The notes under the pieces are model-generated. The model was not told the DNA's origin. It searched no databases and saw only the letters and a program-made list of their open reading frames with translations. A program made the translations under genes and the position numbers. DNA of 64,000 bases from Pyropia haitanensis (taxonomy: Eukaryota; Rhodophyta; Bangiophyceae; Bangiales; Bangiaceae). The stretch is taken from contig SDUX01000005.1 of NCBI GenBank assembly GCA_008729055.1, forward strand, positions 186,001 to 250,000. Reading direction: 5' to 3'. Positions 16,355-49,902 of this stretch are shown one piece after another. Position 1 is the stretch's first letter; each line of letters begins with the position of its first letter.

Positions 16355-16993
16355 GTGAGTGCCAAATCAGGTTCGGAATTTTCTTCCTCGGCGTTGGCGG
16401 ACGCCCCGACTTCCTCGGCGGCGACGGCGCGCCCCCCGACGGCGCGCGGCACCCCGGCGGCGCGCGGCACCGCGGCGGCGCGCGACACCGCGGCGGCACA
16501 TGGCACCCCGGCGAGCGCATCCACGTCATCCTCTGTCGCGGCGACGGCCGCCTCGGCGGCGTCAGCCGCATCCAAGCCCCCCCTCTCGCGCAAGGGTAAG
16601 GGCCCGGCCACGTCAGGCCCGGCGGTCCCAACCAACCGGCGCCTGCTGCTGCCCGCGCAGGATCCGGCCCGGCGCTACATCGCGCCGCCGGCCCCACGAA
16701 TCGGCCACATCCGACCGACGACCGCGCGCGCAGCAGAGCAGCGGGAGCAGCGCCGGATCGCCAAGACCATCCCCAAGGGCAAATACGTTTGCAAGCCGTG
16801 CGGTGTGCGTTGCAACAGCCTGACAGTGCTGCGCGACCATCGGTGGTCGCGGCGCCACCGCAATACGGTCAACCGTCCAGAGACCCGCCCTCGGTGCGAC
16901 CTGTGCGATCGCGAATTTGAGACGGTCGAGCACTTCGAACGCCACCAGCGTGGCAAAGATCACCACCGCACACTGGCGCGCCGCATCGACTGA
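16355..16993 (+). CDS. Accessory zinc-finger ORF of LTR-A (two U1-type C2H2 fingers)
   Basis: 212 codons between the 5' LTR and gag, an extra gene not found in standard Ty3/gypsy elements. The N-terminal half is Ala/Ser/Thr-rich with four 6-residue repeats (ARGTPA type) and a Lys/Arg patch. The C-terminal half has two fingers of the C-x2-C-x12-H-x5-H type: CKPC...H-WSRR-H near residue 145 and CDLC...H-QRGKD-H near 185. This spacing is that of U1-like fingers, which often bind RNA or double-stranded RNA. The frame has no ATG: it opens after a TGA at 16346-16348 and is preceded by a splice-acceptor-like CAG, so a spliced leader may supply the start. The sister element keeps the ORF and all zinc ligands. 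Possible roles: RNA packaging, nuclear import, or antagonism of host silencing; none is shown. Confidence 0.7.
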   Translation: MSAKSGSEFSSSALADAPTSSAATARPPTARGTPAARGTAAARDTAAAHGTPASASTSSSVAATAASAASAASKPPLSRKGKGPATSGPAVPTNRRLLLPAQDPARRYIAPPAPRIGHIRPTTARAAEQREQRRIAKTIPKGKYVCKPCGVRCNSLTVLRDHRWSRRHRNTVNRPETRPRCDLCDREFETVEHFERHQRGKDHHRTLARRID

Positions 16994-17357
16994 CACCTCG
17001 CAACACCCCCCAGGATCTTTGCAAGAGACGCGATTTTCGCCTTTTGATCCCCCCGCGTGGAAATCCGGCACGACCCGACTCGGGCACGTGCGCGGCGGCC
17101 GGCGGGAAAATCCGATTGCGTCATTTGAGTCTTCGAATTCTGCTTCATTGCATCGCTTGTGACCCATCAAATAGTGTTGTCCATCTTTGGAAACGTGGTA
17201 GCCACGACGGCCGCGCTTGTCCAGAGCTAGTGCAGCACTATTTTGCTTGGTCAAATTAACTTGCACATCTTGTAAGACTTGCCCCGTGCTCTGCCGGAGT
17301 AAGTCAAACCGGATCTGTTGAGTTAGTTTGATTATTCCGGACCTCACCCAGGACGCA
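16994..17357 (+). other. LTR-A leader between zinc-finger ORF and gag
   Basis: 364 bases with no gene. Near-identical in LTR-C. May hold the packaging signal and the leader of gag. Confidence 0.4.
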
Positions 17358-18236
17358 ATGGACCCCCCGAATCCTGCAGCTGTAAGCCCGATTAATCCGG
17401 GAACGGCCTCAACCGCACCCTCCGCGGAGTCATGGAATCAACTTACAGCGTTCGTCTCGCAGATGAGCGCCGAGCTCGAGGCTCATAAGGTTGAATTGGC
17501 GGACGCCAAGAAACAGCTGTCCGACGCCAAGGCTAAGGCCACTAGTGGAGTCGCGACGACTGCGAGGCCGAATAAGCCCGCGCTGTTCTCCGGCAAGCCC
17601 GGGACAATTGAAGCATGGTGCTCGCACATGGACACTTGTGTGCGGCTGACTGACCCTGACGAAGCGTGCCGGATCGCCTGCACCTACCTGGACGGTGAAG
17701 CGTTCACCTGGTGGCATACCTACAGTCGGACGACGGAGGTTCCCGACTGGGCTACCTTTTGGGCTGCGCTCATCCGTCGCTTCAGCCCTCTGAACAAGAC
17801 GCAGGCGGCGCGGGACAAGCTGCACTTATGGCGCCAAATCAAAGACGTCGGGACGTTCAACAGGACTTTCCTGAGCGTCCTCTTGGACATCCCGGACATC
17901 ACTGAAGCGGAAAAAATCGACCGCTATAGCCGAGGCTTGAAGCGCGACATCTGGCAGGCACTGTGCCTCAAGACGTACACCGATCTTGAATCACTGATGA
18001 CGGACGCCCTGCGCGTGGAAGCGGCCAAGGCTGGAGTGTCCCGTATCACCAGTAATGTTAACAGCACTTCTGGGAAGCCACCGACGACGGGCGTTGTCCC
18101 GATGGACATTTCCAGCATCAAGATCGAAAAGCTGACGCCAGACGAACGCCAGCGCTGCATGCGCGAGGGTCTCTGCCTTCGCTGTCGCGAGAAAGGACAC
18201 ATGGCTAAGGACTGCCCAAAAAGCCAGCGGAACTGA
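17358..18236 (+). CDS. gag: LTR-A Gag (capsid-nucleocapsid)
   Basis: About 292 residues from the first ATG (MDPPNPAAVSP). The frame extends 30 bases further upstream but only from a non-ATG codon. N-terminal heptad-like stretch ([20 protein letters not shown]) followed by the retrotransposon capsid domain ([41 protein letters not shown]). It ends with one CCHC zinc knuckle, [14 protein letters not shown], which binds the genomic RNA. The stop overlaps the frameshift region and pol follows in the -1 frame. Confidence 0.9.
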   Translation: MDPPNPAAVSPINPGTASTAPSAESWNQLTAFVSQMSAELEAHKVELADAKKQLSDAKAKATSGVATTARPNKPALFSGKPGTIEAWCSHMDTCVRLTDPDEACRIACTYLDGEAFTWWHTYSRTTEVPDWATFWAALIRRFSPLNKTQAARDKLHLWRQIKDVGTFNRTFLSVLLDIPDITEAEKIDRYSRGLKRDIWQALCLKTYTDLESLMTDALRVEAAKAGVSRITSNVNSTSGKPPTTGVVPMDISSIKIEKLTPDERQRCMREGLCLRCREKGHMAKDCPKSQRN

Positions 18237-18252
18237 AGCAGCAACAGTCCGC
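18215..18252 (+). promoter_or_regulatory. Candidate -1 ribosomal frameshift signal, LTR-A gag-pol
   Basis: Heptamer C CCA AAA (18215-18221) in the gag frame fits X XXY YYZ. The -1 frame is open from there into pol without a stop. Five bases downstream a hairpin can form between GCGGAACTG (18227-18235) and CAGTCCGC (18245-18252): 8 pairs with one bulged A and a 9-base loop. The heptamer is kept in LTR-C but its hairpin is weakened by two substitutions. Confidence 0.6.
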
Positions 18253-18259
18253 AACATCT

Positions 18260-21200
18260 GTGACATACGCTCGTTCGGTTCCTGAAAACATGTCGTCACC
18301 ATTTGAAGGCCCGCGACTCGGGCTTCTGCTTTCTACTGCTTCTGTCAATGGAAAAGTTGTTAAGGTGCTGTTCGACGACAAATCTCCCATCAACGTCGTC
18401 TCAAGGCGCCTCGTTTCCTCCCTGCATGTGAAAACGAAAGGAACGGACTTCGCGGCAAGCATGCCGGATGGCCGCTCCCATGTCCTCGCTGAAACCGTTG
18501 ACCCTCTTGAGATTCACATCGGACCGTACCAAGAGCGACTTCGGTTCGCTGTTTGTGACTTGAGTGCGTACGACCTCATCCTGGGAAAGAAGTGGCGCGA
18601 TGACAAGGACGCCAAAATCAACAACAAGAAAAACAAGATCTTTTTTAAGTTTAACCACAAGAACATTTCTATCACTGCGTCCCTCAAGAAGCCCAAGGCT
18701 CTGATCAGTCGGCAACGCCTTGCTCGGGACCTCGTTCAAAGATGCCCTGTTTTTGCCATCTACCTGCAGTCGGAAGATCCCTCTAGCACCTTCGACATTA
18801 ACGCCATTACGATGGGACAAGGCGAAGACAAGAAAGAAGTTCAAGAGATTCTCAAAGAGTATGCTGACGTCTTCCCAGACGAGCTCCCCGACGGACTCCC
18901 TCCTGAGCGCAGTCACAAATTTAGCATCAAGCTGACCGATGACGCCCAACCGCGTCGTAGCGGAATTTACCGACTAGCCGAATGGGAGCTCGAAGAACTC
19001 AAGACTCAACTGGCCGGCCTCATAAGGAAGGGATTCATCCAACCAAGCACCTCACCGTGGGGCTCTTCCCTCCTCTTTGCGGCGAAGAAGGACGGTGGCT
19101 GGCGAATGTGCATCGACTACAGGGCCCTGAACAAGGCTACTATCAAGAACGCGTACCCACTACCACGCATCGACGACATCTTTGACCAACTGCGAAAAGC
19201 CAAGTACTTTACAAAGATCGACCTCCGCTCTGGCTATCACCAGATTCGCCTTGACCCAGAAACAATACCTTTGACGGCGTTTCAAACCAAGTACGGATTC
19301 TATGAGTTCACCGTCGTACCCTTTGGTCTGACAAATGCACCCGCGGTCTTCATGAACCTAATGAACGATGTCTTCCGACCCTATCTGTACGACTTCATCT
19401 GTGTCTACCTCGACGACATCCTAGTCTACAGCGAAACTTATGGCGATCACCTCAAGCACCTACGATTAGCACTCGAGAAGTTACGAGAACACAAGCTCTA
19501 CGCCAAGCTGAGCAAGTGCCAGTTCGCTCGAGCTACTGTGGACTACCTTGGCCACGTCATTTCCGAGAAAGGCTTCTCTATGAAAGACTACGAGGTCCAA
19601 GCCATCCGTACGTGGGCAACACCGAGGAGCAAAAAGGATGTACAATCTTTCCTCGGTATGGTCAACTTCTATCGAAGATTAATCAAGGGAATGGCTGCCG
19701 TAGCTACGCCGCTAACGAGGCTGACTGGGAATGTCGACTTCGAGTGGACACCCGACGCCCAGAAAGCCTTTGAGCAGCTGCAGGACTTAACGACAAGCGC
19801 ACCGGTGCTAAGGCCTTTCGACAAGAGATACCCAATCTACGTGTCTACAGATGCCAGCGGGTATGCTGTGGGCGCAGTCCTCGAGCAAGATGATGGACGC
19901 GGACGGCGTCCAGTGGCGTACTTCTCGTTAACTCTCAACATCCACGAGCAGCGCTACACCATTCGTGAAAGAGAACTGCTTGCAGTTGTACAAGCTATCC
20001 GGCATTGGCGCTGCTACCTCTACGGAAGACCCTTTGAGGTCTACACCGACCATGAGTCCCTGAGATACCTAAGCACCCAAGAGAAGCTGAACGATTGCCA
20101 AGTCAAGTGGCTGGAGTTTCTGGACCAGTTCCAGTTCAAGATTGTCCCAATCAAGGGCACTTCGAACCCCGTGGCTGATGCCCTTTCCAGGCAGCCACAA
20201 GATGCTCCCGACAAGCACGCCCCCAATCAAGACCTTCTTAGTCGCGTGCTGACCAAGACCATTGAAGAACTCCCCCAGAAAACTGAAATCAACAACCTCA
20301 TGACCATCAACCAAAGTGATCAAGACCTTGCCACCTTAAGACAAGAGTACGACGCGGACCCCGAGTTTGCCGACCTAGTCAAAGACCCGGTATCTCCCTA
20401 CCGGCTACACATGAGGTTGTTGAAACGAGGTGACCGTACGTGTATCCCCGTCGGTACTCTACGCCAAAGACTACTCCACGACTACCATGATGTCCCGTGC
20501 CAAGGGCACATGGGAGTCAAGAAAACAACCAAGGTTATCTCTTCCAAGTACTACTGGAAGAGAATGCGGAAAGACATCCAAAGATACGTACAAACATGTG
20601 ATTTGTGCCAGCGGAACAAGGCTAGCACTCATTCACCTCTGGGTCACCTCAAGCCCCTGGACCCCCCGAGCCAACGATGGGCAAGTGTCTCCATGGACTT
20701 TATCACGCCTCTTCCTCTGACTCCAAGAGGTCACAACGGGATTTACGTCGTTGTCGACCGCCTCTCCAAGATGATTCGCCTCGCCCCTATGAAGCCAGAC
20801 TGTACGGCGCCAGTTGCAGCTCAGCTCTATCACGATCACGTCTATCGACACCACGGACTCCCAGCTGATGTTGTCTGCGACAGGGACCGCATTTTCTTTT
20901 CCGACTTCTGGCAGTCGCTCACGGAGATTTTCAAGGTCAAGATCAAGGCCTCTTCAGCGTACCACCCGCAAACCGACGGACAAACTGAGATCATAAACAA
21001 GAAGATCGAAGAAATCCTGCGAAACTTTCTCAACCATCACCAAAGCGATTGGGACCTCTTTCTGGTTGCTGCCGAAGTAGCTTACAACCGGTCGCCAAAT
21101 GCTGTTACAACGTACTCCCCTTTCTTCCTGAACTACGGATTCGAACCTAAGACGGTACGAATGGACATCCTCGAAAACTCAGAGCCAAGCATGCCTGCAG

Positions 21201-21751
21201 TGTCTGACTGGCTAAGCGGTCTCCAACATGCTCAAGAGACTGCCATCTCAGCCATCAAGAGTGCAAATGAGGCGCGCTCGGCGTACGCAAATTGCCATCG
21301 AAGACCTTGCAAGATCGCCGTGGACGATCTGGTGCTACTAAGTACCAAACACCTTTTGCCAGATGCTTTCCAAAGCGCTCGCAAGCTGATACCCAAGTAC
21401 TCGGGACCGTACCGCGTCACTGAGAGCATCAGCGATGTGACGTTCCGCCTGGATCTTCCCCAAGCGGTGCTCGATCGCAAGGTTCACAACGTCTTTCATG
21501 CGAGCATGCTGAAGCCGTACCGCGCTGATCCGTATGGCCGACTTCCTCCCGTTCCGCCTCCGGTGGCATTTCCGGACGGTTCTGTTGAGTACGAAGTCGA
21601 CTCCATCATAAGGTCACAAAAGCGCCGTGGACGACTACAGTACCTGGTCAAGTGGAAAGGCTGTGACGTCAGCGAGAACTCCTGGCTGACCAAGCAAGAC
21701 CTTGCGGACGCACCTGAAGTGTTGGACGCTTTCCTGCGCCGCGCGTCCTAA
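18260..21751 (+). CDS. pol: LTR-A Pol: protease, RT, RNase H, integrase, chromodomain
   Basis: About 1163 residues in the -1 frame relative to gag; probably made as Gag-Pol. Domains in order: aspartic protease (about 18340-18600), reverse transcriptase with the YLDD active site (about 19040-19450), RNase H ([13 protein letters not shown], about 19850-20070), integrase zinc-binding H-H-C-C ([22 protein letters not shown]), integrase DDE core ([24 protein letters not shown]), and a C-terminal chromodomain ([16 protein letters not shown], about 21580-21740). The chromodomain defines it as a chromovirus and should direct insertion to modified chromatin. Oddity: the protease motif reads DDKS where the sister element has DDGS, a Gly to Lys change at the active-site turn that probably inactivates it. 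Confidence 0.95.
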   Translation: MTYARSVPENMSSPFEGPRLGLLLSTASVNGKVVKVLFDDKSPINVVSRRLVSSLHVKTKGTDFAASMPDGRSHVLAETVDPLEIHIGPYQERLRFAVCDLSAYDLILGKKWRDDKDAKINNKKNKIFFKFNHKNISITASLKKPKALISRQRLARDLVQRCPVFAIYLQSEDPSSTFDINAITMGQGEDKKEVQEILKEYADVFPDELPDGLPPERSHKFSIKLTDDAQPRRSGIYRLAEWELEELKTQLAGLIRKGFIQPSTSPWGSSLLFAAKKDGGWRMCIDYRALNKATIKNAYPLPRIDDIFDQLRKAKYFTKIDLRSGYHQIRLDPETIPLTAFQTKYGFYEFTVVPFGLTNAPAVFMNLMNDVFRPYLYDFICVYLDDILVYSETYGDHLKHLRLALEKLREHKLYAKLSKCQFARATVDYLGHVISEKGFSMKDYEVQAIRTWATPRSKKDVQSFLGMVNFYRRLIKGMAAVATPLTRLTGNVDFEWTPDAQKAFEQLQDLTTSAPVLRPFDKRYPIYVSTDASGYAVGAVLEQDDGRGRRPVAYFSLTLNIHEQRYTIRERELLAVVQAIRHWRCYLYGRPFEVYTDHESLRYLSTQEKLNDCQVKWLEFLDQFQFKIVPIKGTSNPVADALSRQPQDAPDKHAPNQDLLSRVLTKTIEELPQKTEINNLMTINQSDQDLATLRQEYDADPEFADLVKDPVSPYRLHMRLLKRGDRTCIPVGTLRQRLLHDYHDVPCQGHMGVKKTTKVISSKYYWKRMRKDIQRYVQTCDLCQRNKASTHSPLGHLKPLDPPSQRWASVSMDFITPLPLTPRGHNGIYVVVDRLSKMIRLAPMKPDCTAPVAAQLYHDHVYRHHGLPADVVCDRDRIFFSDFWQSLTEIFKVKIKASSAYHPQTDGQTEIINKKIEEILRNFLNHHQSDWDLFLVAAEVAYNRSPNAVTTYSPFFLNYGFEPKTVRMDILENSEPSMPAVSDWLSGLQHAQETAISAIKSANEARSAYANCHRRPCKIAVDDLVLLSTKHLLPDAFQSARKLIPKYSGPYRVTESISDVTFRLDLPQAVLDRKVHNVFHASMLKPYRADPYGRLPPVPPPVAFPDGSVEYEVDSIIRSQKRRGRLQYLVKWKGCDVSENSWLTKQDLADAPEVLDAFLRRAS

Positions 21752-21762
21752 GGGGGGGGAGG
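21750..21762 (+). promoter_or_regulatory. Polypurine tract of LTR-A
   Basis: AAGGGGGGGGAGG immediately before the 3' LTR; primes plus-strand DNA synthesis. Its first two A belong to the pol stop codon. Confidence 0.85.
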
Positions 21763-22627
21763 TGTAAGGATATGCCGTCTTAAATCCCCAAGACTGGAGC
21801 CTAGAGGATAACGACTGGGGCCTTTCCTTCCCTGTCCTTCTCAGCCAACTCCTTTCAAGACGCATCAACTCCAAAGTAATCTGGGGCATGCCGCGGTGTC
21901 CGTCCGATAATGTACTACTAACGGACGGTCAGCACGGGAGCCGCGGATTGACTAACCGTCACTACCCTGACTCATCTGCCGACGGGTACAGTCTCCAACG
22001 GATCAACGGACTAACGGACCAAAAGACGAGCCATATCTCTGACGCGTCAGCAAGCCGGAACAATCTCCCCGTGGACCAATGGGAGCGACAGGACTTGCTG
22101 ACCCACGGGAGATATTCGACCCGAAGACTGGCGTCTGCTTACACGCCTCTGAGGCTCTTCGGGTCAAATGGCGCGTGACGCCAGCCGCGCGGCGCTACGA
22201 GCGCCGCACACCGTCCCCCCCCCCGTTTGGGGCTCTCTGGTGGGGCGCCTTGGGGCGCACACGCCCACCCTTGCTTTGTTCTGAGAGCCCATGCTTTGTT
22301 TTGAGAGCTTTGGTGCCGTCCACCGGCACGACGGGCAATCGCATGCTTTGGGGCACCCTGGGTGCCCCCCTGGGGGTATATAATGCGTGAGTGTGGGCGC
22401 CACCGGGAGAGACCTCGGGGGAACAACCACAGACAGAGACACAAAGACCTCCTGTACCTTCGACCCCCTCGACCCTCACCGACGTCACGCCCATCCTCTT
22501 CCCCACCCCCATCACCGTCATCCCACCCGTCACCTTCCCCGCGCCCGGCATCCTCATTGGCTTGCACGGGTTGCTGACGCCGGCACCAGTACGTTGAGGG
22601 CTGCCCGTGTGTGGGTGGTGCCTCACA
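21763..22627 (+). repeat. 3' LTR of LTR-A
   Basis: 865 bp, same length as the 5' LTR with about nine substitutions. Followed by the target duplication CGTAG. Confidence 0.95.
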
Positions 22628-22632
22628 CGTAG

Positions 22633-25381: not shown

Positions 25382-25402
25382 CATATAGTCGAATAATGAC
25401 TG
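25382..25402 (-). repeat. Right terminal inverted repeat of pogo-1
   Basis: On the minus strand begins CAGTCATTATTCGACTATAT; followed by the TA duplication. Confidence 0.9.
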
Positions 25403-25404
25403 TA

Positions 25405-25694
25405 CGTTTTCGCGACGATACGGGGCACTCATGAAGTTCAGTATTAAGTGTGAATCGAGCGACGACGACGGTGACGACGACGGTATTCTCGAATCGCGAG
25501 ATCGCAAAATCAAATGGACGAGCGGAGTTGACCAGCGAAGAGTGTGCACCCCCAATTGGATTGAGATTGCCAAAGCTGAATTGAGTGAAAAGCGACCATT
25601 TCAGATCCCCACCGCCCGGCGGTGTGTGGCTGTCGCGACCCTCTCCCACCGCCGCAGCCACCCCTCCGCCCCGGCTACCGCGTACAGCCACGCT
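25405..25694 (+). repeat. Duplicated segment, part Z, copy 1
   Basis: 290 bases, same length as 57931-58220. Its right half is a diverged unit of the 135-bp repeat found at 36726. Ends with ACGCT (25690-25694), the left target duplication of LTR-B. Confidence 0.9.
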
Positions 25695-25894
25695 TGTGGC
25701 AAGTCGGGTGTCCACAGGGTACCGTAGTCAGGGGGGAGGGTTGACGCACAAACCCGTAACCGCAGTGCCAAGACTATGGCAAGTAAGCGGGACAAAGAAG
25801 GATACGTTTAGACCTGACGAGCAGGGAGGAGCGGGGCGAGAACGCCGTCGCGTGCCCAGAAGAGGCACGCGCGCGCCCGCCGCAACCCTCGATC

Positions 25895-25926
25895 GGACAG
25901 GTCGACCGGGCAGGGTCGACCTGTCC
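25895..25926. repeat. 13-bp perfect hairpin in LTR-B LTR
   Basis: GGACAGGTCGACC and its exact inverse GGTCGACCTGTCC with a 6-base loop. Repeated in the other LTR at 36282-36313. Confidence 0.85.
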
Positions 25927-26005
25927 TAAGAAATAGAAGCGAAATCCCTCCAAGACGATAATTGCATGCGAAATTGGTGAGTACCCCCCGAAAGGGCGTA
26001 CCACA

Positions 26006-26028
26006 ATCGATAGGTCGATCCTATCGAT
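26006..26028. repeat. 9-bp perfect hairpin in LTR-B LTR
   Basis: ATCGATAGG / CCTATCGAT with a 5-base loop. Repeated at 36393-36415. Confidence 0.85.
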
Positions 26029-26093
26029 CGTCACAGGGAGTACTCGATCCAGCTCCCGCGGCCGTCCTCCCCCGGCCCGGGAGCTGTCCCTCA

Positions 26094-26129
26094 GATCGAA
26101 GGATCGCCCGCCGGCGCACGCCTTCGATC
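26094..26129. repeat. 9-bp perfect hairpin in LTR-B LTR (18-base loop)
   Basis: GATCGAAGG / CCTTCGATC. Just before it, AGCTCCCG (26051-26058) pairs with CGGGAGCT (26078-26085). Repeated at 36481-36516. Confidence 0.8.
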
Positions 26130-26324
26130 CAATCACAAGCGACCTAGGGGGGGGGGGCTAGCCCCACCCGTGACGCGACCGTTCGGGCCCGGTGCGCCGC
26201 CCGACCCTTTTACAGGGGTCGGGGAGAGGGGTTGCAACGACGCCCTCGGCGGGTGTGGCCGCCCGTGGGGCTGCGGCGCGTGCCGTCCACTTAGCCGTGG
26301 ACGGCCCCTGCGCGCCCCCCAGGC

Positions 26325-26331
26325 GTATATA
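26325..26331 (+). promoter_or_regulatory. Candidate TATA box for the plus-strand gene of LTR-B
   Basis: TATATAT, the only A/T island at the LTR edge, about 75 bases before the ATG at 26406. TATATA reads the same on both strands, so it could direct transcription outward into the antisense gene. Inference; no transcript data. Confidence 0.4.
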
Positions 26332-26405
26332 TGCCACATACCCCCCGTGTTAGCTTGTCGCCGTCCCTCGGCGACCAAGTTGCTTCGTCCGTCGTGAGAC
26401 GGACG

Positions 26406-29362
26406 ATGCCGGTACCGCATCGGTGGCGCAGCGGCATGGCGGGGGAGATCGTCTTCCGCCCCTTGTCGGAGTGGGTGCCCCGACCGGGGTTCATGTCGCC
26501 GGCGTTCATCAACGCGGAGCTGCTGCGCGTGGCCCGCGAGCATCATCGTGCGTGCCTCCGCCGTGTGGCCGAGGCCGGGTGGGCGCTCCCGGACCGGTTC
26601 GTCGACGTGACGATTTCGGGTCACGTCGCCACGTACGACAGCGTGCGCCTGCATGACGTGCACGGCATTCCGTCCACGGGGCAGCCGGGCGTGCAGGCGG
26701 TCACATTCGTGGCGTTGGCGTTTGCCAACGAGGTGCTCCGTCAAGAGACGCGCGAGGAGGGGCTGCAGCCGTGGGTGCGCAACCTCTTCCTCGTAGCGTG
26801 CAAGCACTACGAGCGGCAGCACTCCTCCCCGGTGCACGCGGCCGCGCTGGCGTTCGACCGCATGCGGCGGGAGTGGCCTCGGGCCCGCTTCGTAGAGGGG
26901 GATCTCTACGAGGGGTTCGACATGATGTACACCCCGACATCCGCCACGCGGGCCGCCCTCGTCGGGTTGAGTGCCCTCCTACAACACCACGCCACGGTGT
27001 CGTACTCGGAGAGCTGCCCGGTCGACATGGACATGTCGGTGCGCGGCGGGGGCTACCTAGCCGGCCGCCGCCGTCCGTCCAGCGTCATCAGCCGTCGCCA
27101 AGTGGCGGCGACGGCCTGCGGGTTCCTCTGCCCCTTGTGGGCTGGGTGGTTAGACGCCACCCGACCCGCGGCGGCTGAGGAACTCGTGCCCCTGCCCGAG
27201 TTGTTCGTGGACGCGGGCTTGAGCTCCCCTCCGGCCATGCCCTTGTTGGCGGAGTACGTGTACTCCTACCTCGAGGACGCAAGCCACGTCGCGTGGACCA
27301 TAGTGTCCACGGAGATGGTGCTCGACTACGCCGCCGTCTGGTTCCAAGCCCTCCGGGAGCGGGGAGTGCTGGTGCGCTTGAAGCGCACCCTGCTTGAGCA
27401 CTTCTCCCGGTTGCCGTTGGACGATCTCCAAGAGGGGTCACCTCCTGGGTCCGCCTTGGCCTTCGGTCGGTGCGTCACGGGGGCCTTGGCGTTCCCCTGG
27501 TCGCACGTCACCGCGTGGGTGGACGTTGGGGGAGTGGGGGACGCCGCCCGGGAGGTGCTGGTCCAGTACACGCCGGACCAGGAGTACGGGTTCGCGGCCC
27601 TGGAATCCCTCCCGGGCTTCCCCAAGGCCGACGAGTTGGAAGGCGACGGTCCCCTACGTCGCCCGGACCTCAACGCGTCAGGGGGCGCGGAGGCGCCCAT
27701 CGACGTGGATGGCGGCGACGCCCCCCCTTCGGCGGGTGCGAAGGAAACGGGTGGCCCGACGTCGGCGCGGGCGCCGACGACGAGGTTCGCGCACTCCTTG
27801 AGCATCTCCCGTGGTCGGCGACAAGAGGCGTTGCGCGAAAGCGCGATGCGGGCGGAGGAGCGGTTGGAGGCGGCAAGGGCGGCGGAGCAGGAGGAGCGGG
27901 ACGGCGGCAGCGCGCGCGCGCTGCCAACCGCGCAGCGCAGGCAGCGGCCCGCGCACGCGCCCAGCGTGGGTCGTCCGCGGGTCCCTCTCGCGACGCCGCC
28001 GCAGGTCGGCGGGACGCCGACCGGCTTAACGCGGGCCGCTTCGGTCGGCGGCCGGCATCCGTGCCTCCTTCCCCCCGTCGGGAGGATCCACTTGGGGGGC
28101 CCATCGGGGCCGGGGCGGCGGCGGGCCCATCGCCCGGGCCGAGGGCGGGCGGGCCTACCGCCGCGTCACCGTCAGGGGCCGCGGGCGTCCCGGTAGCGGA
28201 CGCGGATCGTCGTCGACAAGACGACGATGCGGCGGCGCATGCTGCGGCGGCTCAGGCGGCTGCTGCGGCGGCGGCCGCCGAGAAGGCGGCCGAGGCAGCG
28301 GCAGCGGAGCACGCCTCCGAGGCTGCCAGCGCGGCCCGCGAGCGCGCTACGGCGTTCGCGGCGCAGCAAGAGGCGGCGGCGGAGGCACAACGTCGTTGGG
28401 CCACCAGCGGGGACGAAAACGCCCCGGGGTCTTCCCGGCACAAAGGGTCCGCGCGTAGCCGCGGACGCGGTCGGGGCGGACGGGGTGGCGGCCGGGCGCC
28501 ACACACGTCGGGTCGGGGTCGGCCTCCCCCATCGGGCACGGCAGGGGGGCCGGGCGAGCGTCCTCCGGCTGGGGACGCTGCCGGGGCGGGGGACTTTGGC
28601 AGCCCCGTCCGCGGGAAGAGGGGTCGCCGCGGCAACGCCTCGGGCCCGGGCGCTTCCGAGAGCCGCCGATCCCGTCCGCGCCGCCGGCACAGCCGTTCCG
28701 AGGACACGGCTAGCGCATGCCGCGGTCGACGTGAGCGGTCGCCGTCCCCGGCGACCCCGAGCCGTGCGCGGGGGCGATCTTCACGCCGCCGTCGTCATTC
28801 TCGCCGTCCCGGCCGACGGCAGGACGGGTCGGAGTCGACGGCGGAGACGCGGTCGACTCACCGACGGCGGCATTCGTCGTCGTCGTCGTCGCGCTCGGCG
28901 TCCCGGCGTCGGCGCGAGCGCGGGTCTCGCCACGCCTCGCGGTCGCTCTCTCCCACGGGGTCCCGGTATCGGTCGTGTACCCCGGAGGGGTACAGGGCTG
29001 GCCCCGGGAAGGTGCCGTTGGTCGCGTCGCCGGCGGACGAGTCGGCGTTCCGCCGACTCTTCCGCTCGGAGGACCTGCGCGAGTTGAAGCGCATGCACCT
29101 CCCGGCGCGTCTGATCAACCGTGCCTGGTGCGAGACGGTACGCGTGATGCAGCAGGCATTACGCTTGGAGGTGGACCGGCTGGATGGCGCCACCTTCGAG
29201 GTGGCGTCGCGGTCCCTGGCAGACGCCGCGCTGGACGCGGCGTCGCGGTCGTTGTTGTACGACCGGTTCCGCACCGCCTTGGATGAGGTGATGAATGACC
29301 CCGGCGAGGGGTCATCGGGCCGCTTCAACGTGGCTGACATCTGGGGCGAGGGGGGCGAGTAA
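26406..29362 (+). CDS. Antisense accessory gene of LTR-B: Ala-rich helix plus RS domain (one frame break)
   Basis: Runs opposite to gag-pol, from just inside the left LTR to 106 bases short of the pol stop. The first frame is open from 26331; I choose the ATG at 26406 (MPVPHRWRSGMAGEIVF), after the putative TATA box. Residues 1 to about 480 look globular with no family I recognise (landmarks VRLHDVHGIPSTGQPGVQA, LLAEYVYSYLEDASHVAW). The first frame runs on to 28196; the second, open to 29362, continues the same composition from about 27905, so I infer one frame change at the GC dinucleotide run near 27911 (or an intron). The rest has an Ala/Glu-rich helix (28230-28400), an Arg/Ser-rich stretch like SR splicing factors (about 28660-28980), and a helical C-terminus with LPARLINRAWCETVRV. 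About 985 residues in all. Antisense ORFs in this position are known from plant Tat-lineage elements; homology to them is not claimed. Nuclear RNA-binding or regulatory role is a guess from the RS domain. Confidence 0.7.
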
Positions 29363-29468
29363 AGGGTGTAGGAGGCTCCCGCGTGTCGGGTGCAGTTGGT
29401 GGGGAAGAAGGGGGAGGGGCTAGCCATATAGGGACGCCCAGGTACCCATGAATCGTCTTGTTACTCTG

Positions 29469-32400
29469 CTACTCGCCGGCATGATTTCGCTCAAAGCGAA
29501 ATACTATCGTGGTCCAGACCGGTGGGTGCTCAGCCACCCATAGGTCGGGACTCGCGAGCGAGCGGGGGAAGCACTCCAAGAGTAACTCCTCGTACTCGAA
29601 GCATCGGTTCATGAAGATACTGAACCATTCTTGCGCTTCCCACCGGGGAGCGAGGAGGGTGAGGGCCAATGGAGGGCCACTTGCCAGTCGCTCGGCAATC
29701 TCCGGGAGGAGCGAGGTCGGTGGGTTCGCCCACGCGTTGTGGGGCGTCCAGTCGTGACTCATTGAGTCACGCCACTCGGCCCCGGGCTTGCACTCCTTGG
29801 AGCCGAACCGCTCGAACCTCTTGTTCGCCCGAGTGGCGAACAAGTCGATGGTGTGAGGCCCGTGGAGCTTCTCCAACCGGTTCACGATTGCTCGGGGAGC
29901 CGTCCAGTCTGCCCGCTCCGGTATGTTACGGGGGAAGTTCGTGGGGAATGTACTGCGTAGGTAGTACAGGGGGATGACCTCGCCCACCTGCCCGCGCGGG
30001 TGGGTCCAGATGAGTCGCGCTTGGACGTGACCGTCGGGCGATTGGTGGAAGGCGATGATGGTTGGCACCCACCTGATGCTGGGGGTCACCGCGTTCACGC
30101 GGGCGTCCGGGTGTGGGAGGCCTTGGCTCTGCGACCTGAGTGTCATCTTAGTTGGTGACCACTCGTACCCCGGCACTTGCTTGTTCTGGTTCCGCAGGTA
30201 CCGCAGGACCAAGTGCTTCGGCAGGTCGCCGAGCGGCGTCCACACGTCGTCGTTGCTCTCGTACCCCCACCACCGCACCTTGGCTTGGTGCTCCTCATCG
30301 ACGCATCGTAACCCGACGAGCTTGTCGATGAGGTAGTCGTCCATCACGGATGGACGGTCGGACAAGTTCACCTTGTCCTTGAGCAGGGCATGAGGGGTGG
30401 CGTCGGCTTCGCCGGCTGCATCGGGTCGTGGGGCTGGCGTCGCTTGGTCCCACGACACTCTGCTCTCCTCGTCCCCCACCTGGACAACGAACGTCTTGTC
30501 GTCCAGGTCGACGACAAGGAACGGCCCGTTCGTGGGGCTGGACAACTTGTGCTCGCGTTGGTGTGCCTTCAGGTACACGTAGTCGCCGATCTTGACATCC
30601 TTGTTCCGGGTGGCAAGGTTCTTGTCGTACGTCTTCTTGTAGCGCTGCTGCGTCTTGCGCAGAGCCTCGGCCACCTTGGGTATGGTCTTGCGGAGCCGGG
30701 CCATGAAGGAGCGCTTGACCGACAAGGGCGAGCCGTCCTTGGTGGTGCCGTGTGCCTGGATAGACACACCGGGTGGCGGGCTGTGCACCGTGAGGTTCGG
30801 GATCCGTCTGGGGATGACCAGCTCGAACGGTGCCACGCCCGTCGATCGATGCGGCTGCGTGTTGTACGCGTACGTGAGGATGGGTAGGAGCTCATCCCAC
30901 CGTTGCGGGTTATCCGCAACGTAGTGCCGGAGCTGCTTGACGATGGTGCGGTTGTACCGCTCCACCTGCCCGTTTGTCTGCGGGTGGTACGGCGTCGACT
31001 CCCTTGTCTCAATGCCAAGGGTCCGGCACACGGCGATGAAGAACTTCGACATGAACTGGCTTCCTTGATCCGACAGGAGCACGTCGGGTGGCCCGTAGCT
31101 GGCCACCCATACCTCGACCAACGCCGAGGCCACCGTGACAGCGGTCACCTTCTTCAGGGCGACGCAACGGACGACCTTGGAGAAGCGGTCGGTGAATGCC
31201 AACACGTACTTGTTGCGCGTCAACGAGACAGGCAGCGGCCCGAGGATGTCGACGTTGACTTCCGTCAACGGCTCGGTCGCCGGGAACAGCCTCATTGGCG
31301 CCGTGTGGCGTCGCAATGCAAGCCGGCTCTGTGCACATGCGGCGCACCGCGTGACCACTCCGTAGGCGTCGGTGGCCATCGACGGCCAGTAGAACCGGCG
31401 CCGCATGGAGTAGTACATCCGGTTCGATCCCGGATGTCCCTCCGTGGTCGGGAAGTGGGCCAAGTGGAGCAACCTCGCCCGATGCTTGTGCGGGACCACA
31501 AGCTGGTCCGCGTCGAGGCCCTCTCGGTAGAGCGCGCCGTCCTTCACCGAGAAGTTGGGGGCCTTGCCTGCGGCCATCTTCTTGCGGATGACCTTGCACA
31601 AGGCGTCGGTCGCCTGGTCCGCTACTAGGTCCTCAAACGCGACCGGCGTCAGCCGTACCGCGTGGGTGTACCGCCCCCTCTGCAAGCTTCTGGCCGTCTC
31701 GGCCAGAGCCAAGCATGGGATCTCGTCGTCGAGATCCGAGTCGTCAAGGGCGCCGGTGCGCGTCCGTGACAAGAAGTCGGGTGCATGATGACTTGCACCA
31801 GGCTTGTACAAGACGTCGAAGGTGAACTCGGCCAAGCGGAGGCGCCATCGCATCAACCGGCTGCTTGGGTCGGTGGTATTGTAGATCCACCTTAGTGCCT
31901 GATGGTCCGTCCGCACCGTGAACTTGTTGCCGTCCAAGAAGTGCCGCAAGGTCAGCACTCCCCACACAAGTCCAAGGCATTCGCGTTCCGTCGTGCAGTA
32001 GTTCTGCTCGGCCGGCTTCAGCGTGCGGCTGTAGTAGCCCACCTGTTGCAGCTGGCCATCTTCTTGTTCTTGCAACAAGGCGCACCCGAGCTGGTCCGCG
32101 CACGCGTCGACGTCGACCACGAATCGACGGGTGGGGTGCGGGATGGTGAGCACCGGCGGTGTCACCAAGGCTTGTTTGAGGTCTTCAAACGCCGCGAGTT
32201 GTTCTGCCGTTGGTTCAGGAAGATCCGGGCCGACGTCGTTCTTGGTCAGCTCGGTTAATGGTCTCGCTCTTTTGGCGAAGTCCTTGACGAAGCGTCGGTA
32301 GACGTTGCAGGCACCGAAGAAGCTCTTCATATGGGTCTTCGTCTTGGGGAAGGTGGCCCGTTTGAGGGCCTCGGTGTTCTTGTTGTGCACCTTGAGTTGG

Positions 32401-34145
32401 CCGGGGCAGACCAAGTGACCGAGGTACTCGACTTCTTTCTGGAAGAAGGCACACTTCTCAAGGTTGAGTGTGACGCCTGCTTTACGTAGGCGTGTCAAGA
32501 CTACGTCCAGATGGCGGACGTGTTCCTCGGCGGACTTGGAGAACACGATGACGTCGTCAAGGTAGACAAGACATATCTGCCACTTGAGGCCAGACAAGAT
32601 GATGTCCAGGGCTCGCTGGAACGTTGCCGGGGCATTCGTCAGCCCGAACGGCATGACGACCCATTCGAAGAGTCCGTCGTGACAGGCGAAGGCGGTCTTC
32701 TCTTGGTCCTCCTTTCGGAGTGGCACTTTCCAGTAACCGGCTGTGCAATCAAGTGTCGAGAAGAACTGCGCCTCGCCCAACGAGTCGAGGCAATCATCCA
32801 TCCTAGGAATGGGATAGGTATCCTTATTAGTGACGGCGTTCAGCCGTCGGTAGTCGATGCAGAACCTCGGCTTGCCGTTCTACTTGGGCACGACCACGAC
32901 TGGGCTCGACCAGTCGCTGTGGCTTGGCCGTATCACTTCCTGCTTGAGCATGGCGTTGATGCAGTCCGTGATGATCTCCCTCTTGCGCAGGCCCGTCCGG
33001 TAGGGGGCCTGGTGGATCGGGATGACTTTGTCATCGGTTCCAATCCGATGAACGGTGGCGTGGATCGTCCCCAGCTTGCCGCTCCACATGACCTGATGCT
33101 GCTCGAGCATCCTCCGGATACGCTTGTGGAGGTGCTTCGGAGCGTCCGCGAGGTCGACTGAGTCGACCGACGGCGCGGGCTTATCTTGCGGAGGTTGGGG
33201 CTTCTCATCGACCGTGGCGATGACTGGCCCCTCGTTCATCTCCGCTGACCCGAGGACGGTACGTTTCTTGAGGTACCTGGTTGTCGCGCCGACGTTGCAC
33301 AACCGTACCTGGAAGGGCACGGCGGGCAAGGTGCAGGCGACCCCATTCGCCAAGATGACTTGGTGACCTTGGTGCAGCCTTGAGTTGGTGGTCACATGGA
33401 TCAACCCGGTGATGTCGCTGTTGGCTGCCGCGAACACTTCGGTGAACGGCGGCAAGGTCGTCCGCTTAGCCAGACGGACCTTGCCCTGTTGCCGTTGAAC
33501 GCAGTGCGTGTCCAAGATGGGCATGCAAACCGAGACAGGTGAACTGGGGTCGGACCAGTACACCTTGTTGAGACGTGGGTAGATAGCCTCCACGTGCTGG
33601 TTGATGAACCGGGTACCCAAGATGGCCGGGACGGCCAACTCCTTGACGACGTGGAACGTTGAGACCATCTTAACGTGCCCGGAGTCGACGATGATGTTGA
33701 TCGCCGCCAGGATGGGAAGGGGGTTGCCACGGGCGTCAACCACTTTGGGCGTCCGTCGATTCTTGGACGCGAACGAGGTCCAGTTTGCCGGAAGTTGGTC
33801 AACCCGAATGAGGTTGAGACCCGCCCCGGTATCCAGCGTAGGTCGCATCGCACGCATGTGTTCTGGGGCAGGCCCCAGACACAGGGGAACCGTGTACTGA
33901 CGGTACGCCTTGTTGAGGATCGACGTCCAACACCGAGGTGTTGGTTGGGGTTTGCCGCGGTCAGGGGGAAGGTCGGCCGCGCCGGGCTCACGCGACCGAC
34001 CGCTCAGTTTCCCTGAGCGTGGGCAGGGTGGTCGTCGGTGTCGACGAAGGCCGTTACGGCACGATCCGTTGACAAACGTCGGCGTTCCCGTCGAGGTTCG
34101 GGGCAGTCGCTGGAGAAGTGCCCGAACCGGTGACAGTTGTAGCAT
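29469..34145 (-). CDS. pol: LTR-B Pol: protease, RT, RNase H, integrase, chromodomain-like, Dam-like (in-frame TAG)
   Basis: Frame open from 34145 to 29469 except for one TAG at 32880-32882; overlaps gag by 142 bases in the -1 frame. Order: protease with DTGAGLN (about 33810-33840), RT (SDWSSPVVVVPK, then TAG, then NGKPRFCIDYRRLN; active site VYLDDVIVF), RNase H (VDVDACADQLGCALL), integrase H-H-C-C (CAACAQSRL) and DDE core (VNVDILGPLP, LLSDQGSQF, QTNGQVERYN), then a chromodomain-like segment (KVRWWGYESNDDVW, about 30193-30345). An extra C-terminal region (about 29472-29849) has IDLFATRAN, WANPPTS and LLAPRW, the pattern of phage/DIRS Dam-type methyltransferases. The TAG interrupts RT just before CIDYR and looks disabling; CAG to TAG is one likely origin. 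Confidence 0.9.
33971..34013 (-). promoter_or_regulatory. -1 ribosomal frameshift signal of LTR-B (GGGAAAC plus hairpin)
   Basis: On the minus strand the last gag codons are CAG GGA AAC TGA. G GGA AAC (34013-34007) is a classical retroviral slippery heptamer in the correct phase. After a 5-base spacer, GGTCGGTCGCG (34001-33991) pairs with CGCGGCCGACC (33981-33971) over 11 consecutive pairs (one G-U) around a 9-base loop. The -1 frame leads directly into pol. Confidence 0.8.
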
Positions 34146-35815
34146 TCGTCCGTCGAAGTTGCAGTTCGACGCGGGGACGGGGACCTCGATGCCGGTGTGG
34201 CGTTGCGTTCCGTTCGCGCGAAACGTGGTGGTTGCGGCGGGGTGACCGCGACATTCGCTACGACGGCTTCCGAGACGGCTCCAACACGGATTGGAGAGGT
34301 AGTGTTCCGGATGTGTCGACGCAGGTCCACCTTGACCTTCTGGACGCCCGTCCAGTAGATCTGCGCGGTGGTGATCGCTTCCGGCAGCGACACGCGGCCC
34401 TTGGTCATCTGGAACATGACAACCTGAGCCTTGATCGCGTCGTGAAGTCCGTTGATGAACGTATCAACGAGATCGCTGCTGTTGAACAAGCCAACGAGGC
34501 GGTCGCACATACGCTCGAGTCGTTTGCCGAACGCTCGAGGTGCTTCTTCTTGTTCTTGACGAGCAGAAATGACCTCGGTGTAGGCCTCGTTCAACTTGTC
34601 CGGTGTTGCAAACTTCTGCAACAGCCAGTTCACTCCGTCCCCGTACGTCTTGATGGCGTGCGCGTCCCGTGTCCCACTGTTGGACACGGCGGAGGTGAAG
34701 GACAGCTTGGCCGACCCCGACAGGCGAAAGCCGAGGAGAGGCAGTGCTTGTCCGTGTGACGCTCCGGCGGCGTCACAAGCTTTCTTGAACGTAGACAAAA
34801 ACCCGAAGATGGCGAGAGGGTCCTTCCCAGTGAAGGGTGCCTGACCCTGGAACGGCCCGTCCAAGCTTTTGTTCAGCTTATGTGCTTTCCTGACAAGACG
34901 GGGTGGGTACGCCAGGCGCGTATCCTCCAGGAAGTACGTCTTGTAGCACAACAGACGTCGGTAACGACGGTTGGGTGCATGGATGGCCATCCGACGGTCG
35001 AACACCTTGTGTTCGTTCTTCTTTAATCGCTTGGACTCGAGCCCGCGTCGGCGTCGCGTAGCTTCCTCCTCGTCCGTGGTGCTTTCGTAGGAAGATTCCG
35101 ACGGGGAAGACGGCGGAGAAGGAGGGGTCGGGGGCCCCGATGTCGACGGTGACGACGATGACCGATCGGACGAAGTAGATCGGTCCGTCGCCGTCGATGA
35201 CCGGGACTTGGAAGGGGCGTCGTCACGTCGAGTGTGACGAGGGCCGTTGCGTGTACGGCGGCCGCGCTCGGGGGTACCTTGAGCGGGGCGCTCACCGTAC
35301 ACTTGAAGGAGAGCCTGGAGTCCCGCAAGTAGCTCCGCCGTGTCATGTTGTTCCTTGACAGGCTCAGATGTCGGCTGCTTGCGATCCTTGGGCTGACCCT
35401 TCTTGGTGGGTCGGGGCTTCTTCATGGAGCCACTGGCGGATCTGCTCTCTTGAGCAGACTTCTGCATCTCAACCAGCAGATCTTGTTGCTGCTGCAGACG
35501 TCGCGTCAGTTCGGCTACCGTGGTCTGCTCGTCATTCAAAGCTTGCTCCGCTTGAGCAAGGGCAGCTTCATAGGCGGCAGTCCGGCCGTCGTCTTCTGCC
35601 TCTGCGGTAGGCGTCGGCCCAGCCGCCGACGCCGAGGCCGCTGGGAACGTCAGCGGGTCGTCCTTTGGGTCCACGTCGGCGTGCGCCGACGGGGCCCGAC
35701 GAGGAGGCGGAGGGGGGTCGTTGCGGGCTTAAGTGGTAGAGGAAGACCTCGTGGAGACGCCCTTTCGGCGCGTCCCATCGGCGGGCACGTAGTCCTTCGG
35801 GAGATGAGGATCCAT
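34004..35815 (-). CDS. gag: LTR-B Gag (in-frame TAA near N-terminus)
   Basis: The only upstream ATG in frame is at 35815 (MDPHLPKDYVPADG), but a TAA at 35731-35729 follows after 28 codons. The remaining 556 codons are open to the TGA at 34004. Features: heptad-rich N-terminal segment (AALAQAEQALNDEQTTVAEL), a Ser/Arg/Pro-rich region, a capsid-like central domain (GKDPLAIFGFLSTFKKACD, FATPDKLNEAYTEVIS) and one CCHC knuckle CYNCHRFGHFSSDC. Either the TAA is a nonsense mutation (CAA to TAA would fit) or translation starts internally. The end of the gene carries the frameshift signal. Confidence 0.85.
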
Positions 35816-36061
35816 GTTGCCCGTCCGATCAGGTCCTCCCCTGTCGAGGACCGGCGATCGCTGTCGTCCACGGGGCTACGGCCCGTGGCGACCCCTTGAC
35901 GTGATGAGCCCCGCTCACCACCACCTTGACCCGGGTCCGTTTGCGCCCTGCGCTCCGGCCGCCCAAGTCGAAGTCCACGATGACACCGCTACCCGTCTTA
36001 GCCGTAAAAGATAAGGAGATACACGTCCACCTCACGGCCGAGGGCCGTGAGTTTCTGCGTA

Positions 36062-36079
36062 TCCCCTGCTGCTCCACCA
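36062..36079 (-). promoter_or_regulatory. Primer binding site of LTR-B
   Basis: On the minus strand TGGTGGAGCAGCAGGGGA starts two bases after the 5' LTR. The plus strand reads like a tRNA 3' end (...CCCTG CTGCTCC A CCA), i.e. T-stem, acceptor strand, discriminator and CCA. I cannot name the tRNA. Confidence 0.7.
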
Positions 36080-36081
36080 AA

Positions 36082-36725
36082 TGTGGCAAGTCGGGTGTCC
36101 ACAGGGTACCGTAGTCAGGGGGGAGGGTTGACGCACAAACCCGTAACCGCAGTGCCAAGACTATGGCAAGTAAGCGGGACAAAGAAGGATACGTTTAGAC
36201 CTGACGAGCAGGGAGGAGCGGGGCAAGAACGCCGTCGCGTGCCCAGAAGAGGCACGCGCGCGCCCGCCGCAACCCTCGATCGGACAGGTCGACCGGGCAG
36301 GGTCGACCTGTCCTAAGAAATAGAAGCGAAATCCCTCCAAGACGATAATTGCATGCGAAATTGGTGAGTACCCCCCGAAAGGGCGTACCACAATCGATAG
36401 GTCGATCCTATCGATCGTCACAGGGAGTACTCGATCCAGCTCCCGCGGCCGTCCTCCCCCGGCCCGGGAGCTGTCCCTCAGATCGAAGGATCGCCCGCCG
36501 GCGCACGCCTTCGATCCAATCACAAGCGACCTAGGGGGGGGGGGCTAGCCCCACCCGTGACGCGACCGTTCGGGCCCGGTGCGCCGCCCGACCCTTTTAC
36601 AGGGGTCGGGGAGAGGGGTTGCAACGACGCCCTCGGCGGATGTGGCCGCCCGTGGGGCTGCGGCGCGTGCCGTCCACTTAGCCGTGGACGGCCCCTGCGC
36701 GCCCCCCAGGCGTATATATGCCACA
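36082..36725 (-). repeat. 5' LTR of LTR-B (right copy)
   Basis: 644 bp, drives gag-pol on the minus strand. Same hairpins as the left LTR at +10387. Differences seen: 25831/36218 region (G/A) and 26248/36640 region (G/A). Confidence 0.95.
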
Positions 36726-37265
36726 ACGCTGTCTAGACCACCAGGATGTGCGCCGGCGCCACCCATGCCAGCGCCTTGCCCCGTGGCCCCCAAAGCGCCA
36801 CCACCGCGACGCCCTCTCACCGCCCCAGCCACCCCTCCGCCCCGGCCACCGCGTACACCGACGCTGCCTAGACCACCAGGATGTGCGCCGGCGCCACCCA
36901 TGCCAGCGCCTTGCCCCGTGGCCCCCAAAGCCCCACCACCGCGACCCGCTCTCACCGCCCCAGCCACACCTCCGCCCCGGCCACCGCGTACACCGACGCT
37001 GCGTAGACCACCGGGATGTGCGCCGGCGCCACCCATGCCAGCGCCTTGCCCCGTGGCCCCCAAAGCCCCACCACCGCGACCCCCTCCCACCGCCCCAGCC
37101 ACCCCTCCGCCCCGGCCACCGCGTACACGGACGCTGCCTAGACCACCAGGACTTGCGCCGGCGCCACCTATGCCAGCGCCTTGCCCCGTGGCCCCCAAAG
37201 CCCCACCACCGCAGCCTCCACCCATCGCGCTGGCCGCCCCTCCACAACGGGCACCAGCGGTTCCC
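36726..37265 (+). repeat. 135-bp tandem repeat, four copies (copy 1)
   Basis: Units start at 36726, 36861, 36996 and 37131 (ACGCTG(T/C/C/C)...). The period of 45 codons keeps frames open on both strands: a Pro-rich peptide on plus and a Gly/Ala-rich peptide on minus (frame 36545-37537). Copy 2 has only two units (58216, 58351). Whether either strand is translated cannot be decided. Confidence 0.85.
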
Positions 37266-37615
37266 AAATCGCGGACTCCATGACCTGGTTGTGTCTCAAC
37301 AACGTCAAAAACAGCACCGGTCCGCATGCCCTCAGGGAGACCACCCTCGTCCACTCCGACCGCGCCGGCAACACAGGCCGCACCGGCCCCACTACCAGGG
37401 CCGACCCCACCTTGAACTTGGTGACCTTCGCCGAGGCGCCCCCAGTCGCCAAAGGCCCCCCCAGTGTTGGCTGTTGAGCCCGGCGGGCACACTGTAGTCC
37501 GTTCTTCTGCATGGGCCAAAAAAAAAACAGCCAGCACAGCAATCGGAGCGCAATAGACAAAACAGAAACGGGTCGCGTCAGTACGTCAAAGTTGGAGGAA
37601 AGCCAAGAGACGTGG

Positions 37616-38740
37616 TCAAAGCAAGAAAGAAAACAGAGGAAACGGACGCGTACTTGGTTGAGCGCCGTGCTTCTCCACGCGTCGGTAAGACACAGTCAAA
37701 TTGTACAGAATGGCCACACAAGTGCCAACGTCCTTGAAGGAAGCGACGTGATGCAGCCTCGCTGGGCGCTGCAGAATCTGTCACTCATTGAACAGCACAG
37801 CATACACGCGCTCGGCGTCCTTGCGTCGCCCCTCCTGGCGACTCGCAAAGTACTTCGACTTTTTGTCGTCAACGTCTGACGTGCATATTAACACCGCGTG
37901 ATGCGGATAGATGCTGTCACAAAGGAAGTAGGGCATAGTACGTTCCACACCATGAACGGTGTAGGGAACAGGGGAAGGGAAGTCACCGGCGCTAATGGAC
38001 TGAAAGAGCGGAGAAAAAGACATAACATTGAGGTCCTTCGTAGCGCTAGGGAGACTAATGTAAAAATGCTACAAGTGAAGGTCAACGTCAGCTACAGTTT
38101 CCATGACAATCGTCGGTCTTATCGACTTTCCCTGGTACTGCCCATGCAGTCGCACGGGGCAGTTCTTCCATGTCCAATGCGAGCAGTCCACACAGCCCAT
38201 GTACCCAGGAAAACCAGCCTCCTCATACATGCCCGTGACGTGCACCAAGTCAGAGGGAGTGGGCGCGCACATGTAGACAAGACCAAAAGTATCAATAACA
38301 AAGCGACCAAAGCGGAGAAGGGTCTCATTCATTGTTGTCTCAGACAGGCAAGCACATTCATCAACACGATCATACGCCTCTCCATAAGCAAGCACTCTGA
38401 GAGCTGCGACCACCTTCTGCAGAGTGGAGGACTGCAAGTTGCCAGTGACATTCGGGCGCTGCTGGAAGTTGGGAACGTCACATAGGCCACGATACAAACG
38501 GTCAAACACAACGCGAGGGAGAAGAAAGCGACGCTCAAAGTCGGTCTCGTTATACGTCGGGGGGCGCCCATTAACGCCGAAGTAATCGCGGTTAATGGCA
38601 TAGTCCGCCCATGCAAAGTCTTTTAGTTGCTGCTCGGGTGCAACCGACGCAGCGGCGATGTCATCGTCATCCGCGTCGCAGAACGCCGACAGGACACCGA
38701 CAACAGCAGCGTCAACGCAATCAGAGTCGCTCTCGTCCAT
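37616..38740 (-). pseudogene. PIF/Harbinger transposase with two nonsense codons (copy 1)
   Basis: Plant-type Harbinger DDE transposase. From ATG 38740 (MDESDSD) it reads RFLLPRVVFDRLYRGLCD, LRVLAYGEAYDRVDE, GCVDCSHWTWKNCPV, GQYQGKSIRPTIVMETVAD, then a TAG (38069-38071) where the family has Trp, and continues in the same frame (SLPSATKDLNV, YFLCDSIYPHH, RRKDAERVYAVL) to a TGA at 37781-37783 and on to 37616. The catalytic residues (D of CVDC, D of CDSIYP, E of DAER) are all present. TGG to TAG and CGA to TGA would explain both stops. The same stops occur in copy 2. No MYB-like partner gene is visible. Confidence 0.85.
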
Positions 38741-49879: not shown

Positions 49880-49902
49880 AGATGTTGAGGATTGTTGCTG
49901 CT

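Follow-up and report, generated by a model that had tools for sequence, protein, structure and literature searches.

The presence of a long gene running against gag-pol inside a single LTR retrotransposon of a red alga raises the question as to whether such a frame encodes a protein that the element uses and, if so, what that protein might do. The locus lies in a 64,000-nucleotide stretch of Pyropia haitanensis DNA (the window, meaning the whole stretch analysed) on contig C6 of the source assembly searched (52.9 Mb, 136 contigs), where a Ty3-type LTR element of 11,031 bp occupies positions 25695-36725; its family is here called family A. The two 644-bp LTRs (25695-26338 and 36082-36725) show 2 mismatches, the termini read TGTGGC..GCCACA and an ACGCT target duplication is present on both sides. 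Within the element a plus-strand gene (26406-29362) opposes the minus-strand gag-pol tail to tail, starting 67 bp from the LTR edge and stopping 106 bp from the pol stop. An antisense gene of about 985 codons in this arrangement, inside an LTR element with target duplications, was what the first-pass annotation had described, and our analysis bears it out. The features are as follows.

25690-25694, unstranded: target-site duplication ACGCT, left
25695-26338, minus strand: LTR, 3' relative to gag-pol
26326-26332, plus strand: TATATAT at the LTR edge, an outward promoter proposed from sequence
26341-26346, minus strand: polypurine tract GGGGGG, adjoining the 3' LTR
26406-27910, plus strand: antisense gene, part 1, with the start codon, an N-terminal domain of about 440 residues and the start of the Ala/Glu region
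27911-29362, plus strand: antisense gene, part 2, with the Ala/Glu helix, Gly/Arg and Arg/Ser stretches and the C-terminal domain (break boundary approximate)
28655-28975, plus strand: Arg/Ser-rich stretch (limits approximate)
28976-29362, plus strand: C-terminal domain, common to the P. yezoensis homologue P0001 and family B (start approximate)
29469-32801, minus strand: pol, with RT, RNase H, integrase, a weak chromodomain and a Dam-like tail
29712-29918, minus strand: Dam-like domain PF05869, residues 962-1030 of a 1110-residue frame (27.4 bits, cut-off 28.1)
30210-30332, minus strand: chromodomain, under the cut-off in the window copy
32880-34145, minus strand: upstream part of pol, protease to RT start
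34004-35674, minus strand: gag with a CCHC zinc knuckle
36060-36079, minus strand: primer-binding-site candidate, adjoining the 5' LTR
36082-36725, minus strand: LTR, 5' relative to gag-pol
36726-36730, unstranded: target-site duplication ACGCT, right

The order of RT, RNase H and integrase in pol together with the flanking LTRs is that of Ty3/gypsy elements; the protease match in the minus-strand pol is weak. The chromodomain scores 13.7-14.3 bits in family A, under the cut-off of 25.1, and 32.0 bits, above it, in the related family B described below. In the window copy an in-frame stop at 32880-32882 separates the part of pol from protease to the RT start from the rest, while two further copies (L038 and L040, or E1 and E3) have gag open over 623 codons and pol over 1,664; in the third extra copy read (L039) pol is broken. 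Where both frames are open (L038; L040 1180-7583) there is an overlap of 457 bases between gag and pol in the -1 frame, an arrangement suggestive of programmed -1 frameshifting. The LTR pairs of three further elements differ at 0 or 1 sites each and the insertion of these elements is therefore recent. The Dam-like domain PF05869 matches 68 places genome-wide, 66 of which pass the cut-off and many of which lie in other open frames of 650-1000 codons; among 14 control genomes it was matched in E. coli only. The primer-site candidate is common to families A and B, and ARAGORN found no tRNA gene for it at the four matches tested.

Matches to the flanks of the element occur elsewhere in the window, the left flank (25402-25694) matching 57928-58220 and the right flank (36726-36985) matching 58216-58475 with an overlap of 5 bp. 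The region 57928-58475 is probably the empty site, although the flank is a 135-bp tandem repeat of which other registers match too. An array of 135-bp units (36591-37390) lies beside the right end of the element and the insertion site falls within the repeat. The window further holds a 5.8-kb direct duplication (36940-42781 and 58160-64000, 99.4%), and a further LTR element is present as two inverted copies of 7.4 kb (15253-22627 and 45516-52883, 97.5%).

In the window copy the antisense gene is split over two overlapping frames (26331-28196 and 27470-29362), and we looked at its state in other copies of the genome using the first 502 residues as a query. This search gave 50 matches, among them 18 near-full copies (L001-L018, L001 being the window copy) that cover at least residues 1-499 (residues 2-501 in L002). 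The antisense frame is open over 985-986 codons in 13 of the 18 (L002-L005, L007-L014 and L016, L002 being without the first ATG) and interrupted in the window copy and in L006, L015, L017 and L018. The first-pass annotation had asked whether the frame is conserved and whether the break near 27911 is fixed among copies; the frame is conserved to this extent and the break is private to the window copy, being present in 0 of the 17 other near-full copies. The 18 copies are not all to be read as independent insertions, since some may be segmental duplicates.

Selection on the frame was assessed with Nei-Gojobori counts, uncorrected for base composition, for the 13 open copies (78 pairs). Mean dN/dS in the frame of the antisense gene is 0.293, with values of 0.17 to 0.47 among the 42 of 78 pairs given singly, against means of 1.31 and 1.54 for the two remaining plus frames and 1.29 and 1.43 for two of the minus frames. 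The minus frame that mirrors the gene, sharing its third positions, gives 0.38 and has 11-12 stops in every copy, and in these copies the other five frames have 11-19 stops each. Variable sites fall mostly at third codon positions (69, 55 and 136 at positions 1, 2 and 3). For the pair E1 and E3 dN/dS is 0.185 in the antisense gene, 0.192 in pol and 0.169 in gag, near-equal values which indicate that selection maintains the antisense gene about as strictly as it does the core genes. When two groups of copies are compared by part, the N-terminal domain gives 0.25, the linker 0.36 and the RGG/RS stretch 0.21; the C-terminal domain gives 0.52 within family A, based on few changes. A plus frame full of stops in other copies, or a dN/dS near one with no plus-strand transcript, had been named beforehand as grounds for giving up the gene; the frame is conserved across copies and its mean dN/dS of 0.29 is well below one. 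These substitution patterns identify the plus frame as a protein-coding accessory gene, carried by a Ty3-type LTR retrotransposon and showing the signature of purifying selection.

Four further places in the genome match the antisense protein at 26-29% protein identity. Family B (L032 together with L035, C7:3787794-3798468) is an element with 392-bp LTRs that are 99.2% alike, the same polypurine tract and primer-site candidate as family A and a pol of 56% identity. Its antisense gene has the same place and orientation (L032 4162-5934) and the C-terminal domain follows just downstream in another frame. Family C (L031) has a pol of 57% identity and a degenerate antisense gene laid out as in family A; no LTR pair was found for it. 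At L033 a B-type fragment of the gene is cut by a nested, different LTR element, and a degenerate pol (55%, C7:3740946-3744197) beyond the nested element faces the fragment; together they fit the antisense layout, as deduced from coordinates alone. The nested element itself (L033 3596-4116 with L037 4451-4971, C7:3745450-3754115) has LTRs 99.8% alike and a pol with 41% identity to that of the window. L034 holds a fragment of the gene with no pol in the piece viewed and was left out of the count.

Three protein searches, each scoring the 7,987-7,997 candidates sharing most words with the query so that distant relatives may be missed, returned at least 9 homologues, 3 of them with an organism name; precomputed annotation gives a Pfam domain for none of them. 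Pyropia yezoensis and P. vietnamensis (Bangiales) both have annotated homologues, which are known here as proteins alone. The P. yezoensis protein P0001 (978 aa) has the full family A architecture including the RS stretch and C-terminal domain. The P. vietnamensis protein P0012 (619 aa, in a cluster of 74 sequences) shares 46% identity with family C over residues 8-606 and 27-29% with family A over the longer matches (best E 1.5e-20). On the evidence of these alignments no fewer than three families of elements in bangialean red algae have the gene. Among the families examined it is confined to A, B and C. The other LTR family of the window (15253-22630, inverted copy 45516-52887) has a pol of 28% identity whose frame ends at 21751, with the 3' LTR starting from 21762, leaving no room for an antisense gene. 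A family with a pol of 48-49% identity accounts for 7 of the 41 places scored out of 426 candidates, and in the one copy of it examined (L043) the approximately 1.35 kb between the end of pol and the presumed LTR gave no homologue (best E 0.62).

Copies that have lost the gene bear on the question as to whether each element needs its own. L042 (C7:3868102-3877341) measures 9,240 bp from LTR to LTR and lacks about residues 16-435 of the antisense gene, nearly all of the N-terminal domain, as well as everything beyond residue 858. Over the 1,625 bp of pol that come next, DNA identity to family A is 98.95%, and protein identity is 99.8% over 537 residues. The element is 1,791 bp shorter than that of the window, exactly the shortfall within the gene region, and gag-pol is therefore without net loss. 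Six loci including L042 (on C7, C8, C99, C9, C1 and C6) share a remnant that is 99-100% identical to the one in L042; longer remnant matches elsewhere are 77-85% identical. Across the matched part pol is free of stops at three of these six loci; at two others it has a single stop, and at the remaining one it is split. Elements whose antisense gene no longer works thus seem to have multiplied, segmental duplication being a possible alternative, and because this subfamily, present at six places, lost nearly all of the conserved domains and kept pol, the gene seems not to be needed in cis. Differences between the remnant and family A lie mostly at third positions (54, 52 and 119 at codon positions 1, 2 and 3), so most of the divergence arose while the gene worked, and we rejected a long-dead gene as the source of the remnant. 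The pattern points to a once functional, diverged gene that was joined to a current pol, probably in a recombination event. The spread of the subfamily fits dispensability and action in trans equally well. With nearly the same pol in copies with and without the gene, this natural comparison makes the choice between cis and trans, and between need and dispensability, directly testable.

The spread of gene-less copies would also be expected if the gene were a host sequence captured by transduction and useless to the element, and capture of genes by LTR elements is known (PMC7264820). We regard such a passenger as rather unlikely given that three diverged families and three species have the gene, that it lies antisense and in the same place wherever the adjoining pol is visible, and that it is under selection as in gag and pol. 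The matches to the gene that were examined, a part of the 50, all traced to copies of the element, and no separate host gene was recognised among them.

The promoter of the gene was proposed to lie at the TATATAT of the LTR edge. The 21-base LTR edge with this motif is identical in all 18 near-full copies; it is part of the LTR end and is kept in L042, which lost the gene. Family B has another sequence at the LTR edge, and its start codon is 975 bp further inside. A putative outward promoter at TATATAT is possible, and the gene would form an antisense transcription unit of its own that begins close to the edge of the 3' LTR. If long enough, a transcript of a gene placed between pol and the 3' LTR would overlap pol, and antisense transcripts of LTR elements can limit or silence them (PMC7264820 and PMC12786077). 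The antisense RNA might then be what matters, pairing with gag-pol RNA with the frame itself incidental. This is unlikely in view of the selection on the protein (dN/dS 0.29 in the sole open frame) and the protein similarity across families and species, as an RNA role alone would not keep 985 codons.

The protein family itself is without recognisable relatives. The 986-residue product of an open copy (L005) matched 0 Pfam families at E <= 10, a search of PDB sequences gave 0 matches, viral contigs showed no relative, and Foldseek searches of PDB with both structure models gave nothing at E <= 0.001. These models are of low confidence (mean pLDDT 46.7 and 51.3), with about residues 30-160 only predicted helical with fair confidence. 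The earlier view of the N-terminus as belonging to no known family is in agreement with this. An RS domain had also been described, and it holds for part of the family. RS/SR dipeptides reach 10 in 60 residues in family A (tested on an uninterrupted copy), 11 in the P. yezoensis homologue and 14 in family B, densities reached by 0 of 300 shuffles, with the total number of dipeptides exceeding that of the shuffles in family B only. The P. vietnamensis homologue lacks such a cluster, with 3 in 60 residues, a value that 237 of 300 shuffles reach. We rejected identity as an SR protein, which calls for an RRM together with an RS domain, as no Pfam domain was found in the proteins of L005, P0001 or family B. 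A Transposase_28 or PMD protein was likewise rejected on the Pfam result for L005.

The large N-terminal half, helical in the models, and the basic Arg-rich stretch would suit a structural or virion-like protein on the antisense strand, either a second Gag or an analogue of an envelope protein. We consider this very unlikely as the element has a separate gag with a zinc knuckle, and no Gag or Env domain was found in the antisense protein by Pfam at E <= 10. That the frame is open merely by chance in DNA rich in G+C (63% over the window, which has 110 frames of at least 150 codons) has a practically negligible probability and was rejected, given 0 stops in 13 copies against 11-19 in each other frame, the third-position bias and homologous proteins in other species.

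With RS clusters recurring in family A, the P. yezoensis homologue and family B, we infer a nuclear factor that binds nucleic acids, and a predicted accessory factor of this kind acting in trans is the most likely product. It would consist of a helical N-terminal domain, an Ala/Glu helix, a Gly/Arg and Arg/Ser stretch and a C-terminal domain, would bind RNA or DNA in the nucleus and may help the element in ways such as shielding its RNA, exporting it or counteracting silencing. The gene-less subfamily suggests that it might act in trans or be needed only under some conditions. The joint explanation, a selected antisense accessory gene in at least three bangialean families with its own transcription unit and a product that is a nuclear RNA- or DNA-binding helper, has in our estimate a probability of roughly 55%. 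The failure of domain and fold searches to find a match, the poor models, the dN/dS of 0.52 in the C-terminal domain (few changes), the TATATAT edge not kept in family B and the RS cluster missing from the P. vietnamensis homologue count against it. More tentatively, red-algal Ty3 elements may have their own ancient class of antisense gene, trans-acting in anti-silencing or RNA handling and unrelated to that of land plants, in which case the ambisense layout would have arisen independently and the gene-less subfamily would be a natural parasite living on the factor.

The locus had been put forward as an undescribed system. Elements with an antisense gene between pol and the 3' LTR have already been seen in land plants and in a fungus, so the layout is not an undescribed kind; for an antisense protein family of this sort in chromodomain-bearing red-algal elements we did not find a description in the open-licence literature, where no title or abstract start among the papers found names a red-algal antisense or ambisense LTR element. 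The available part of PMC6317226, which treats plant Ty3 lineages, contains neither the word antisense nor Porphyra nor red algae. Additional ORFs are on record from plants, fungi and animals alike (PMC12786077).

Comparison with known systems places the gene as follows. HBZ of HTLV-1, an antisense gene whose reading starts on the side of the 3' LTR, encodes a small bZIP protein and nuclear regulator. The gene described here is likewise antisense and on the 3' LTR side, and its proposed product would likewise be a nuclear regulator, with no similarity to HBZ shown and with a promoter that is putative. HBZ is named as an antisense gene in PMC7264820 and PMC11963269. SR splicing proteins share the Arg/Ser-rich stretch but have an RRM, for which there is no Pfam match here, and the P. 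vietnamensis homologue has no such RS stretch.

The closest likeness is to the antisense-aORF Ty3/gypsy elements including Grande, in which as here (in family B too) the frame is antisense to gag-pol, lies between pol and the 3' LTR and is present in most copies and several species. For gene23 of Grande an own promoter and a nuclear product are reported (PMC7264820); for the red-algal gene both are predicted. Retand, of the Tat group, is described from eudicots and Liliopsida as a lineage outside the chromoviruses, with an antisense gene in a long region between pol and the 3' LTR and Transposase_28 in 97% of clusters (PMC11963269). The long region with its antisense gene is shared, and the Retand product is thought to bind DNA; unlike it the L005 protein has no Transposase_28 (PF04195; Pfam E <= 10), and the chromodomain of family B speaks against a Tat placement. 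The red-algal elements thus differ from antisense-aORF elements in their antisense protein, which has neither Transposase_28 nor any other Pfam domain, in their host, in a chromodomain (over the cut-off in family B) and in a Dam-like tail. Antisense genes of LTR elements have been described mainly in land plants, and the elements studied here add a large, selected red-algal case, with a protein family without known relative and many recent copies.
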